A stretch of 23,822 nt of DNA, taken from IMG/VR virus record IMGVR_UViG_3300034198_017539, positions 1 through 23,822 of that record; one strand, written 5' to 3'. The notes under the pieces were generated by a model. That model did no database searches, had not been told where the DNA came from, and was given only the letters and a program-made list of their open reading frames with translations. The first letter of the stretch is position 1, and each line of letters opens with the position of its first letter. Below are positions 13,338 to 23,524 of this stretch, in pieces. The position numbers were made by a program, and so were the translations under genes. Source of the DNA: a virus.

Positions 13338-15557
13338 TCAAGCCTTTGATGGACGGAATATACCAATCAACGTGCCGTCTGCAGGAGCAGAGAAGCCACC
13401 GCGCCATGCAATGCTTACGTCACCCTGTGATGGGTCGCCGTTGCCATTACTGTTGCGGCACTTCTGATTTCCACCGACGAAATTCAATATTCCATTATTA
13501 TTCTCATAGACAAATGAAACGTGACCATAACTCCAGAGAGCGATATCGCCAGATTGTGCCTCTCGTGGGTTTAGAACTCGAAGTGCACCATAATCGGATA
13601 TTCTGTTACGAATATCGAACGCAGAAGCAGTTTGAACGTAGCGATATCCATTTTGCTTCAATCCATAGTTTACGAAGCCCATACACCATGAGGTTTGGTC
13701 GCTGTTCCAGGCACCCTTATTGCCGAAGCCCAAGTCTCTCCAGATGTTGAGAATATTCGGATTAGATGGATTGCCACCCATACCTGTTTCGAGCCAATAC
13801 TTCGAGGAATTGGTTTTCGCCAACTGCTGATCGAGCCATGCCTTGAGGTCTGAGCCGTCACTAGTATTCGGATTGTTTGGGTTGATATAACTTGAGCCAA
13901 ATCCGCTAGTATCTGGTGTTCCGCGATAGTTTTCTTTTACGCCACCATTCGCCGCATCGCCGTTATAGAATGATCTTGGATTTTTAACGTATTCAATTGT
14001 TTGTTGATCGATATCAAGTTGTCGATCTTCAGGTAGACGAATGCTTGGACTCTTCTCAAAGAATACAGGTGGGTCGTTATATTCCAACACAGGGACAGCC
14101 TCACCAAGTCCCGTAGTATATGCTGGGACGCCTTCACCTGCAGCAATGCCAGGAACTGGCACACCAGTAACAGGAGTTGGTGAAACGGTAGTGAAAGTTT
14201 GAAGTGGAGCAATTACTGTCGCGCCAAGTGACACTGAAGTGCCATGAATGTTCACAAGTCCAGCGGATGTAAGAGCAACCACCTCACCATTTAATCCGAC
14301 CGTGGCTGCAGTCATTGATGCAACAGCGCCAGATTGAATTGCGACTTCACCTTCTGCCTGTAGACTTACCGCACCACCCGCCTGACCAATAACAGCACCA
14401 CCAGCAGTTAGAGAAATATCTGCACCGCCGCTCATTGTGATTCCAGCATCACCCAACACTGAAACATCACCACCCTGCAAACCGACACTGCCGTTTGGTG
14501 CAACAACATAAACACCATCACCATCGTTCTCGCCGTTGCCTGTAATTAGAACAGCAGAGTTTGCAAGTTGACTGATGTAAGAGTTGGCTTCTAGATTGAT
14601 GCTTTCGGCTTTGATATTGAAGTCGCCACCAACAGTATAGTTGACACTGCCACCGACGTTTGCGTTCACGTCGTTGTGTGCTTCTAGATTTATGTTTCCA
14701 TAAACCTTTATATTGACATTGCCTTCGACTGTTAGATTGGCACGTCCTTTGATATAGACATGGTCGTCAGAGAAAACAATTTTGTAATTGTTTTTGACAA
14801 TCTTTTCTACTTTGGTGCCTGATGGATACATTTCCTGGAATGTACCTGAGCGGTGAGCGATATGCACACGCTCTGAACCAGGAGTATCGTCAAACTCCAT
14901 CACGTGACCAGATTCAGTTTCCCAAACCTTATTGAATGGATACTCTGCATCATAACCTGGAGTTGGTTCTTGCCAAGCATCGGTTTCAGATACTGGAACT
15001 GTAACAGTTGAATATTGCTTATACGCTAGAACAGTTTGATCTGTTTGTTCGTTTCGAACGAGTGGGCTGTTGGTTGGATGACCAATTTGGAACACAGATG
15101 GATTTCGAAGACTTGCCAATTCTTCTTCATCAGTAAATTCTTCGATGGTTGCGCCAGTACCGTCTGCAGCATACTCGACATTTCGAGGCTTCTTTGGTGA
15201 GGCAGCAATTTCTTCTGGAGTTCGAAGATCAGCAAAACCAGCGTTTGGATCAGTTTGTGTATTTGGAATACCAGGAACAACACCCATCATTACTGGCTGT
15301 TGTGCATACTGTCCATCGATAAAGAACCCGAAAACGTAATCGCCTTCCTTTGGCGTAGAAAATGTTTGATTGTTTAGCGAGTGAACTGGAAGTGCCCAAG
15401 GAAGATCTTCGGAAGGGATGTTGGTTAAGTCGGGGCTGTGTGAGCCAAAAATACGAACCTGACAACGACCCAGCAACAATGGATCATTACGATTTTCAAC
15501 GACGCCGAACCACCAATGGAACCCGTCTAATCCTATAAAGTCTTTACGAAATTTCAT
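13338..15557 (-). CDS. gp5: Baseplate central spike gp5 with C-terminal CHAP/NlpC-like peptidase domain, 739 aa
   Basis: gp5 is the membrane-piercing spike at the tip of the tail tube. Residues 1-97 form the gp5-type OB fold (HWWFGVVENRNDPLLLGRCQ then VRIFG, SEDLPWALPV, GDYVFGFFIDG, QPVMMGVVPG). Residues about 205-450 are VgrG-like, starting SGHVMEFDDTPGSERVHIAH and continuing as short beta-helix strands (VEGNVNIKVYGNINLEAHND). T4 has a GH24 lysozyme between the OB fold and the helix; here that region (98-205) is only an acidic linker. Instead the C-terminus (about 565-739) carries SWCMGFVNYGLKQNGY with Cys625, SYGHVSFVY with His679 and NFVGGNQ with Asn697, the layout of CHAP or TIGR02594-type amidase/endopeptidase domains. 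Its start overlaps the gp27 stop by four nt (ATGA). The hub role is certain; the enzyme class is inferred from motifs. Confidence 0.92.
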   Translation of the reverse strand: MKFRKDFIGLDGFHWWFGVVENRNDPLLLGRCQVRIFGSHSPDLTNIPSEDLPWALPVHSLNNQTFSTPKEGDYVFGFFIDGQYAQQPVMMGVVPGIPNTQTDPNAGFADLRTPEEIAASPKKPRNVEYAADGTGATIEEFTDEEELASLRNPSVFQIGHPTNSPLVRNEQTDQTVLAYKQYSTVTVPVSETDAWQEPTPGYDAEYPFNKVWETESGHVMEFDDTPGSERVHIAHRSGTFQEMYPSGTKVEKIVKNNYKIVFSDDHVYIKGRANLTVEGNVNIKVYGNINLEAHNDVNANVGGSVNYTVGGDFNIKAESINLEANSYISQLANSAVLITGNGENDGDGVYVVAPNGSVGLQGGDVSVLGDAGITMSGGADISLTAGGAVIGQAGGAVSLQAEGEVAIQSGAVASMTAATVGLNGEVVALTSAGLVNIHGTSVSLGATVIAPLQTFTTVSPTPVTGVPVPGIAAGEGVPAYTTGLGEAVPVLEYNDPPVFFEKSPSIRLPEDRQLDIDQQTIEYVKNPRSFYNGDAANGGVKENYRGTPDTSGFGSSYINPNNPNTSDGSDLKAWLDQQLAKTNSSKYWLETGMGGNPSNPNILNIWRDLGFGNKGAWNSDQTSWCMGFVNYGLKQNGYRYVQTASAFDIRNRISDYGALRVLNPREAQSGDIALWSYGHVSFVYENNNGILNFVGGNQKCRNSNGNGDPSQGDVSIAWRGGFSAPADGTLIGIFRPSKA
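13341..13865 (-). other. Cell-wall peptidase-like domain of gp5 (Cys625, His679, Asn697)
   Basis: Residues 565-739 of gp5. A helix bearing TSWCMGFVNYGL places Cys625 at its N-terminal end, as in papain-like CHAP domains. AQSGDIALWSYGHVSFV supplies His679 and FVGGNQ supplies Asn697. The ending GTLIGIFRPSKA is a typical last strand. It probably cleaves peptidoglycan crosslinks or stems during injection; substrate unknown. Confidence 0.65.
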
Positions 15558-20910: not shown

Positions 20911-21627
20911 ATGGCGTTACCAAAAATTGATTTGCCAGTTTTTCATTTACAATTAAAGTCTGAAGATAAGAAAATACGCTTTCGACCGTTTCTTGTTAAA
21001 GAAGAAAAACTATTGATCATGGCTTTGGAATCTGGAGAGCATGCTCAGATTATCGATACGATCAAACAGGTTATCAATAACTGTCTGATCGATGAACTTG
21101 ATTTAGATAATCTTCCCATGTTTGAGGTAGAGAACATCTTTCTCAACCTACGTGCCAGATCGATGGGCGAAATCGTCGAAGTGACTTATGTCTGTCAAAA
21201 CGTCTTAGAAGAAAAGAAATGTGGCGCGGAGATGGAACTGCAAGTTGATCTGCTAAAAGTTGCTTTGGATATGGGCTCTGTTGACCCTGTGATCAAACTG
21301 ACTGATAAGATTGGGATCAAAATGAAATTCCCAACCTTCGAAGTAGCAAGATCTATATCAGGGGAAAAGGACTCTGATGTAGCGATGAAGATTATACGCG
21401 AATGCACCGAGTTTATTTTTGATACAGAACAAACATATAAGGCTGATGAAGTCAGCACTGAAGAGTTTAATGATTTTATTAACAATATGACACAAGAACA
21501 GTTCGGTAAAATAAAACAATTTTTCGATAACATCCCAAAATTGAAGTATAGCGGAAATGTTCAATGTCCAAGATGCAAAAAGGGACATGATGTGTTCCTG
21601 GAGGGTATCCTCGATTTTTTCGAATAA
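20911..21627 (+). CDS. gp26: Baseplate hub assembly chaperone gp26-type, 238 aa
   Basis: The start MALPKIDLPVFHLQL and RPFLVKEEKLLIMALESGEH are typical of the T4-type gp26 family, which helps assemble the hub and tape measure. The ATG at 20911 has a GGAG ribosome site six nt upstream; an in-frame TTG at 20899 is less likely. Cys95 and Cys104 (YVCQNVLEEKKCG) pair with Cys219 and Cys222 (QCPRCKKGH), which suggests a zinc ribbon closing the fold. T4 gp26 is 208 aa. The last codons (GAT TTT TTC GAA TAA) contain a T TTT TTC slippery site, in register to continue into the following 70-aa frame. Together with the tape-measure gene just downstream this mirrors lambda-type G/GT tail chaperones. Function from family and context; frameshifting is a prediction. 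Confidence 0.82.
   Translation: MALPKIDLPVFHLQLKSEDKKIRFRPFLVKEEKLLIMALESGEHAQIIDTIKQVINNCLIDELDLDNLPMFEVENIFLNLRARSMGEIVEVTYVCQNVLEEKKCGAEMELQVDLLKVALDMGSVDPVIKLTDKIGIKMKFPTFEVARSISGEKDSDVAMKIIRECTEFIFDTEQTYKADEVSTEEFNDFINNMTQEQFGKIKQFFDNIPKLKYSGNVQCPRCKKGHDVFLEGILDFFE
21600..21605 (+). promoter_or_regulatory. Internal Shine-Dalgarno-like GGAGGG upstream of the slippery site
   Basis: GGAGGG ends nine nt before the slippery heptamer at 21615. In dnaX an internal ribosome-binding sequence at about this distance stimulates -1 frameshifting. It is 21 nt from the next ATG (21627), too far for ordinary initiation, so it suits frameshift stimulation better than initiation. Confidence 0.5.
21615..21621 (+). 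promoter_or_regulatory. Candidate -1 ribosomal frameshift site T TTT TTC
   Basis: In the gp26 frame the sequence reads GAT TTT TTC GAA TAA. Slipping back one nt gives TTT TTT CGA ATA ATG, which enters the frame of the 70-aa gene exactly at its start codon. The fused product would be 309 aa (237 residues of gp26, Arg-Ile, then the 70-aa protein). Confidence 0.55.
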
Positions 21628-21839
21628 TGCTTCGTGATGAATCGTTGAGAAATTACTTTATAAACAATTTCTCGCTCATGCAATACCACCATTACTCTTT
21701 GCATGAACTTGAGTCAATGTTACCTTGGGAAAGAAAGACTTATATTTCATTAGTCGCGAAGCATGTTGAGGAAGAGAACGAAAAGATTAAACAGCAGAAA
21801 GAAAAGAATTCTGCTAATCGCACCAGAAGAAGTAGATGA
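21627..21839 (+). CDS. Small tail-assembly protein, T-part of a putative G/GT chaperone, 70 aa
   Basis: The ATG shares its A with the gp26 TAA stop (TAATG). The sequence is FSLMQYHHYSLHELESMLPW, then ERKTYISLVAKHVEEENEKI, then a basic tail with ANRTRRSR. A ..MPWWER..Y..LL..H.EEE.E.. pattern is common in small proteins next to gp26 in T4-like phages and in the T part of tail-assembly chaperones of other long-tailed phages. T4 gp51 lies in this region but is 249 aa, so I do not use that name. The protein may be made by termination-reinitiation, by -1 frameshift as an extension of gp26, or both. It ends in an ATGA overlap with the tape-measure gene. Confidence 0.72.
   Translation: MLRDESLRNYFINNFSLMQYHHYSLHELESMLPWERKTYISLVAKHVEEENEKIKQQKEKNSANRTRRSR
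21647..21673 (+). promoter_or_regulatory. Perfect 8-bp hairpin downstream of the slippery site
   Basis: GAGAAATT (21647-21654) and AATTTCTC (21666-21673) form a perfect stem with an 11-nt loop, 25 nt after the slippery heptamer. That is farther than the usual 5-9 nt for a frameshift stimulator, and the stem is AT-rich, so any role is uncertain. Confidence 0.3.
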
Positions 21840-23524
21840 ATAAACAAACTGACTTAGAAGAAAAGATAGAAAAACTTGAGAAGAAACTTCGCCGAGTTGG
21901 AGGACAACTTGATGAGGTTGGGGATATATTCAGCCCTTCGGCGCAGAGAGATTTTCGTGCATATAAAGGCACATTTTCTCAATATATGCGAGAACAAGAA
22001 CTTCGCAAAAAGGCTACTGGTAGAAACAGAACCTTCTTTAATATTGCTGCAGCACTCACTGGAAATGAAGACATCTCCAGAATAATCAGCGAGAAGTTTG
22101 ATGAGAAATATTCTGAAGCCGAGGTAGAGCAAGCGAAGCAAGCTCTGCGAGATGAATTTGGAATCAAAGAATCAGAAAATAAAAAAGACAAAGAAGAAGT
22201 ATTTAAAGAAACTCTTGAAACATTCTTTAATCCGATTACACAGACAGTTAATGGACTGGTTAGGGCTGCAGACAAAACAGCTGAAGAAATCAAAGATGTT
22301 TATGCAAAACTCAGCACAATTTCCAATTCATTAGTACCAACGATCAATCAGCTCGCAACTGCTCTTGCTGGAGGAACACCATCTGCCAGATCAGTCGCTG
22401 AGAAATTAAAGCCAATAACTGTAACTGGACTCGAAGGTGAGGAGTATCTTTACTATCCAGACGCACCTGAAGGTCGGCAGTTATACGAAAAGAGTAAGAA
22501 AGGCACAGCAGGCAGAATTGCAAGCAAAAAAACTCAAAAGTCTTTGAAGAGCGAAATAAAGAGACTGATGAATGAAAATTCTATGAAGCCAATCAGAAAA
22601 ATAGATTTAGATGAAGTGGCTCAGAAAGATCCAAGTGCTGGGAAACTCTTGGGCGAGATTAAAAAACTACTAGACGAACAAACTGCATACAGAAAAGAGG
22701 AGATGGCAAATTTGTTATCTGATCTTAAATTGGCAGTTGGTGCAGATAACGGAAGTAGCATCTTTACTGCAGAACCAGATGAACAACAATCTACTCTACA
22801 GAAAGCACTCACCAAAGCACTTGAGGAAATTATCGCTGAGAATCCAGACCTATTAAAATGTCAATCAAGTTTATTGGGTGATATTGGTATACCTAATTTA
22901 CGTGGAAATCTATTCGGTAAAAATGGACCAATAAATCCATCAACAGTTCCAAAATTTGCGCCTGGGGTTGGTGGTGTTGGCGGATTTGCAGCCGCTCCCA
23001 TTTTAAGTGGATTGGCAGCAACTGCAGCAACTGCATTTGCCTTTGATAGTGGAATGAAGAGCATAGGTGAAGGCGCAATCGGAAAGATTGCAAATAGTTC
23101 TGCCGCAGATATTGCTGTTGCATTAGAACGTGGATACAATAAAGAATATACTCGCCAACGACTTCACGAGATGGCAAAAGATAATCCAGAACTCCAAGTT
23201 AAATTGAAGCAAGCCGAACAAATGGCTGGACTTATTAAGCCAGAAGCGAAACCACAAAATGCCACAGCTCTAGTTATTGAAAGAAATACTGAGCCAATGG
23301 GTCAGCAAATCATCGATCAGAATAGAAAGAAGTTAGAAATCAATAACGCACAAGAAGTTACAATTCCTTCTCAAACTGTAAATCAATATAATACCACTAG
23401 TGTTATCCCAATTCCTGCAAAGGAAAAGTCAATTAGTGTCAATAATCCAGATAACACATTCAATCGTTTGTTGGCTCAGGAATTCAATCATCCGTCAACG
23501 TATAGCAGTTTGACGATGGGATAA
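21836..23524 (+). CDS. gp29: Tape-measure / baseplate hub protein gp29-type, 562 aa
   Basis: T4 gp29 (590 aa) runs inside the tail tube and sets its length; the near-identical length here suggests a tail of about T4 size. Residues 1-30 are a strong coiled coil (LEEKIEKLEKKLRRVGGQLD), and about 80-165 and 235-300 are charged helices. A Gly/Ala-rich hydrophobic segment (376-405, VGGVGGFAAAPILSGLAATA) resembles the membrane-active segment of tape measures. The C-terminus ends NPDNTFNRLLAQEF before a short tail. The gene follows the putative G/GT chaperone genes, which is the usual order for tape measures. Residue-level similarity to T4 gp29 is not clear to me by eye; the call rests on length, composition and context. 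It starts in an ATGA overlap with a purine-rich AGAAGAAG stretch upstream. Confidence 0.78.
   Translation: MNKQTDLEEKIEKLEKKLRRVGGQLDEVGDIFSPSAQRDFRAYKGTFSQYMREQELRKKATGRNRTFFNIAAALTGNEDISRIISEKFDEKYSEAEVEQAKQALRDEFGIKESENKKDKEEVFKETLETFFNPITQTVNGLVRAADKTAEEIKDVYAKLSTISNSLVPTINQLATALAGGTPSARSVAEKLKPITVTGLEGEEYLYYPDAPEGRQLYEKSKKGTAGRIASKKTQKSLKSEIKRLMNENSMKPIRKIDLDEVAQKDPSAGKLLGEIKKLLDEQTAYRKEEMANLLSDLKLAVGADNGSSIFTAEPDEQQSTLQKALTKALEEIIAENPDLLKCQSSLLGDIGIPNLRGNLFGKNGPINPSTVPKFAPGVGGVGGFAAAPILSGLAATAATAFAFDSGMKSIGEGAIGKIANSSAADIAVALERGYNKEYTRQRLHEMAKDNPELQVKLKQAEQMAGLIKPEAKPQNATALVIERNTEPMGQQIIDQNRKKLEINNAQEVTIPSQTVNQYNTTSVIPIPAKEKSISVNNPDNTFNRLLAQEFNHPSTYSSLTMG

Follow-up and report, generated by a model that had tools for sequence, protein, structure and literature searches.

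The end of the gp26-like gene in an uncultured T4-like virus very probably carries a −1 frameshift site, T TTT TTC, through which one tail assembly chaperone (TAC) gene would encode both a short form and a frameshifted long form. The sequence analysed, hereafter the window, is virus record IMGVR_UViG_3300034198_017539 (23,822 nt), and the locus lies in its T4-like tail and baseplate region. The frameshift reading is favoured because the heptamer, the reading frame beyond it and an upstream Shine-Dalgarno (SD)-like motif are conserved, many relatives lack start codons for the second protein, the N-terminal protein has a predicted chaperone fold and the corresponding T4 proteins are paralogous. 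The site is thus a well-supported further example of a published T4-like frameshift and not a discovery.

In the proposed mechanism, most ribosomes would read the gp26-like gene to its TAA and produce the short form, TAC-N. A minority would slip one base back on T TTT TTC, aided by pairing of GGAGGG with the ribosomal anti-SD sequence, and continue in the −1 frame to yield a 309-aa long form, TAC-NC. By analogy with lambda gpG and gpGT, the two forms probably act as a coat on the tape measure protein, and the C-terminal extension of the long form probably recruits the tail tube. We infer the slipping, its frequency and the binding partners of the proteins.

Organization of the junction

By direct reading, the gp26-like open reading frame (ORF) extends from the ATG at 20911 to the TAA at 21625-21627, its end codons being CTC GAT TTT TTC GAA TAA (Table 1). 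The zero-frame codons within the heptamer are TTT at 21616 and TTC at 21619, which places it in register for a −1 slip. The TAA overlaps the ATG at 21627 of a 70-aa ORF, whose stop ends at 21839, and this ORF would be entered in frame since the −1 frame past the slip reads CGA ATA ATG CTT. The predicted fusion amounts to 237 + 72 = 309 aa, the C-terminal part having 72 residues after the slip and 70 from its own ATG. An earlier note had claimed the in-register heptamer at the end of gp26, the GGAGGG nine nucleotides upstream of it and a slip opening the 70-aa frame to give a product of about 309 aa; the first two are confirmed at 21615-21621 and 21600-21605, and the third holds at the level of the sequence.

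Table 1. Features of the putative frameshift locus in the window
Feature	Position	Strand	Basis
TAC-N short form, gp26-like, lambda G counterpart, 238 aa	20911..21627	+	PF12322, phrog_150, AF2
GGAGGG, internal SD-like stimulator (candidate)	21600..21605	+	Read directly; 9-nt gap to heptamer
Slippery heptamer T TTT TTC, putative −1 shift site	21615..21621	+	In-frame T TTT TTN conserved
TAATG: TAC-N zero-frame stop overlapping possible −1 ORF ATG	21625..21629	+	Read directly
TAC-C, T domain, gp51-like C-terminal domain, −1 frame	21621..21839	+	phrog_634, phrog_150 C-terminus
Predicted TAC-NC fusion, 309 aa, lambda GT counterpart	20911..21839	+	Inferred from its parts and T4 gp51 architecture
562-aa ORF, tape-measure position	21836..23524	+	Position only

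The pair had also been placed directly before the tape measure gene. The next ORF, of 562 aa, does occupy the expected position, but this assignment is positional: no homologue emerged from Pfam, from any phage-collection record or from comparison with Cr30 and HTVC008M, in both of which the annotated tape measure lies two ORFs on from the pair. Elsewhere in the window, the minus strand carries a 739-aa ORF (13338-15557) that has the look of a gp5-like spike protein of the baseplate; by eye, the C-terminal part is reminiscent of a hydrolase (stretch SWCMGFVNYGL).

Family and fold of the gp26-like protein

The gp26-like protein matches PF12322 (E 3.8e-58; 197.2 bits against a curated cut-off of 24.5) and phrog_150 (E 4.8e-66), and a sequence search of it against solved structures returned no match. 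Its AlphaFold2 model, built with 79 relatives, has a mean pLDDT of 92.4, and the predicted fold was compared by VIA-align with 772 chains that Foldseek had picked out beforehand. The highest scores went to 3fgx, 2ob9 and 3klu (Z 8.4, 7.7 and 7.6; the next 4.7), over some 85-90 N-terminal residues. These entries are the three phage tail assembly chaperones with solved structures, HK97 gp13 (2ob9), YqbN and Rbstp2171, and PMC9603447 describes all three as such. Foldseek alone gave a non-significant result for the model (2ob9, E 2.6) and, although the VIA-align Z scores are modest, the agreement of all three chaperone matches to the predicted fold would be hard to ascribe to chance. The earlier proposal that gp26 represents the G part of a G/GT-type pair is supported by this HK97 gp13-like N-terminal fold, together with the architecture of T4 gp51 described below.

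Conservation of the slippery heptamer

The sample comprised 275 sequences, namely 274 fetched loci from viral contigs and isolate phages plus the window, and gave 257 usable junctions that fell into 146 clusters at 90% gp26 identity. Of these 146 clusters, 141 have T TTT TTN in frame where gp26 ends; at 50% identity the figure is 45/49 clusters and at 40% it is 18/21. The variants among the 141 are TTC (108), TTT (31) and TTA (2). Elsewhere in the same genes the six-T arrangement occupies just 0.05% of codon positions. Within the genes of the window, canonical X XXY YYZ heptamers occur 25 times in 7637 codon steps, a count slightly inflated by one gene being out of frame, and T TTT TT occurs once in those steps. 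The earlier note had predicted that the heptamer would not be lost where both proteins are kept, and with 141/146 clusters retaining it this prediction survived.

Two groups of relatives are unusual at the junction. In Mosig (L034:1788-2519) and the contigs L241 and L243, the zero frame stays open for eight codons after the heptamer, and the short form would therefore have a different tail with an unchanged shift site. An Ackermannviridae-like set, consisting of L047:2182-2300, L277, L276, L043 and L275 (Ackermannviridae), L281 (Cygsa01) and L045 (Vibrio D506), has a single PF12322 gene, and the −1 frame there encodes the small domain or something resembling it (...MPWH...). Members of this set lack the canonical heptamer, a point against the frameshift reading, and have [A/C]TT TTC NNN TAA in common; at the junction, those from Kuttervirus and Taipeivirus lack ATG, GTG and TTG alike, and the others have an overlapping ATG.

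The C-terminal domain

Two profiles match the 70-aa ORF: phrog_634, annotated 'baseplate hub assembly catalyst' (E 3.1e-21), and phrog_150 (E 1.6e-4). The latter is longer and is matched at its C-terminus, which suggests from profile composition that joined forms exist. When the three forward frames were searched with a profile built from −1 readings of heptamer-bearing members, the gp51-like small domain was found in the −1 frame in 143/146 clusters and never in frame 0 or +1. It is predicted to be helical (pLDDT 79). A Pfam scan of 76 T domains produced just scattered weak matches, and the matches of the T domain in a sequence search of solved structures were rejected as chance matches of long helices.

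The upstream motif and downstream RNA

In 94 of 141 relatives (67%), against 7.5% expected from the same genes, an SD-like tetramer begins 8-20 nt before the heptamer. Glutamate codons at the motif favour GAG over GAA (GAG in 66/101, compared with 24% elsewhere). Relatives that lack any start codon have the motif as often (45/68) as those with one (49/73), so starting the second protein is not its sole role. A search across relatives for conserved downstream RNA structure revealed only a weak signal, folding being at most slightly elevated (mean z −1.25 versus −0.58 for the control). Conservation of the heptamer, the reading frame and the SD-like motif among T4-like phages extends down to about 30% protein identity.

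Alternative readings of the junction

As the window contains TAATG, some free small protein could be produced there by stop-start coupling. A scenario compatible with the frameshift reading, and unlikely rather than negligible, is that fusion by frameshifting is accompanied in this subgroup by some free T domain arising from coupled re-initiation, as the co-occurrence of the conserved heptamer with TAATG in the subgroup would allow. However, between the upstream stop and the end of the conserved core the −1 frame contains no ATG in 98/141 relatives (about 20/141 have one among the first −1-frame codons), and a free T domain is therefore not a general requirement. An extended and rather doubtful form of this proposal is that the subgroup junction yields short, frameshifted long and free C-terminal products, GGAGGG and TAATG having a joint role in frameshifting and re-initiation, and that the Ackermannviridae-like long form arises through the non-canonical [A/C]TT TTC.

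It is much less probable that the two ORFs simply encode separate proteins, the small one being translated from its own ATG by TAATG stop-start coupling and the T run merely encoding Phe-Phe. Both the overlap and GGAGGG are present in the window, and close relatives share the overlap, but the 21 nt that separate GGAGGG from the ATG are far for initiation. In 65/141 relatives, the −1 frame lacks ATG, GTG and TTG alike over that stretch from the upstream stop to the end of the conserved core, and there the domain could therefore hardly be made except by a shift. Codon choice at the site also argues against mere coding of Phe-Phe: the first Phe codon is TTT in 141/141 clusters, compared with 69% elsewhere, and the pair is fixed as TTT TTY, whereas TTC TTT is the commonest form of the other Phe pairs in these genes (79/186). 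In two clusters (L209 and L219) the second Phe has changed to Leu (TTA) with T TTT TT intact, and it is therefore the bases, not the residues, that are conserved. Slippage of RNA polymerase on the run, which is indeed pure T, is the most improbable explanation, since transcriptional slippage usually needs longer runs and here the run mostly consists of just six T (T TTT TTC in 108/146 clusters), with a strict codon register and an SD-like motif that point to the ribosome.

Comparison with known systems

The likeness to T4 extends to both of its proteins. T4 gp26 and gp51 each match PF12322 (8.8e-64 and 3.9e-52, the latter over gp51 residues 1-201), and the extra C-terminal part of gp51 is the same small domain, that is, gp51 has the architecture of a gp26 paralogue to which this domain is fused in frame. 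Judged by these matches, the two are paralogues, of which gp26 is the short and gp51 the long form. Both are listed as hub assembly chaperones, and gp51 is required for assembly yet absent from the particle (PMC3004832). The difference is that T4 has two divergent genes and the window one frameshifted gene. Two PF12322 genes were found in T4, PhaR5, 44RR and Klebsiella KM3 and one gene in the other 27 records tested. The junctions read among the two-gene genomes (T4, PhaR5 and KM3 gp26) lack the heptamer; the single-gene genomes have it, the Ackermannviridae-like set excepted. The gene counts and heptamer pattern therefore indicate, over a broad sampling, that most sampled T4-like lineages use one gene with lambda-type frameshifting for their tail chaperones and that the T4 group uses two paralogous genes.

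This arrangement would also account for anomalies in annotation. Annotated cyanophage gp51 has been described as 'truncated' by about 200 residues, and gp51 as seemingly missing in Aeh1 (PMC3037559); the missing part would be gp26, supplied by the frameshift. In public annotation the −1 ORF is cut to an internal ATG in P-SSM7 (31 aa; L036) and HTVC008M (45 aa; L033) and omitted in S-WAM1 (L051) and AS-zj (L042), apparently because no start codon exists at the junction.

Tail assembly chaperones of T4-like phages were reportedly identified by Vladimirov, Gautam and Davidson (Virology 2022, PMID 34826709). The link between gp26 and G/GT, regarded in the earlier note as unfamiliar in the T4 literature, had therefore been published already, as papers citing that work indicate, and by every sign these are the same proteins, in short and long TAC forms. 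The citing papers place poly-T −1 slippery sequences in the TAC-N genes of T4-like phages (PMC12846349) and report separate short and long genes for some of these phages (PMC10274946); a 2016 review had described the G-T frameshift as widely conserved 'except T4' (PMC5009743). A literature search combining gp26, gp51 and frameshift returned only unrelated phages using the same gene numbers. What is added here is a new member and an independent, wider test based on start-codon absence, SD spacing, the Phe-to-Leu cases and the fold match.

In the −1 frameshift of Escherichia coli dnaX, an internal SD-like element lies about 10 nt ahead of the slippery heptamer. The window resembles it in having such an element about 10 nt before its heptamer, and differs in the heptamer itself; no strong conserved downstream hairpin was found. 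A further parallel is lambda gpG/gpGT, the mechanism of which is reviewed in PMC5009743: in both cases a short protein and a protein extended by −1 frameshifting, predicted in the window, would be encoded ahead of the tape measure, a placement that rests here on position. Unlike lambda, the window has T TTT TTC rather than the lambda site, and its N-terminal protein, at 238 aa, is larger.
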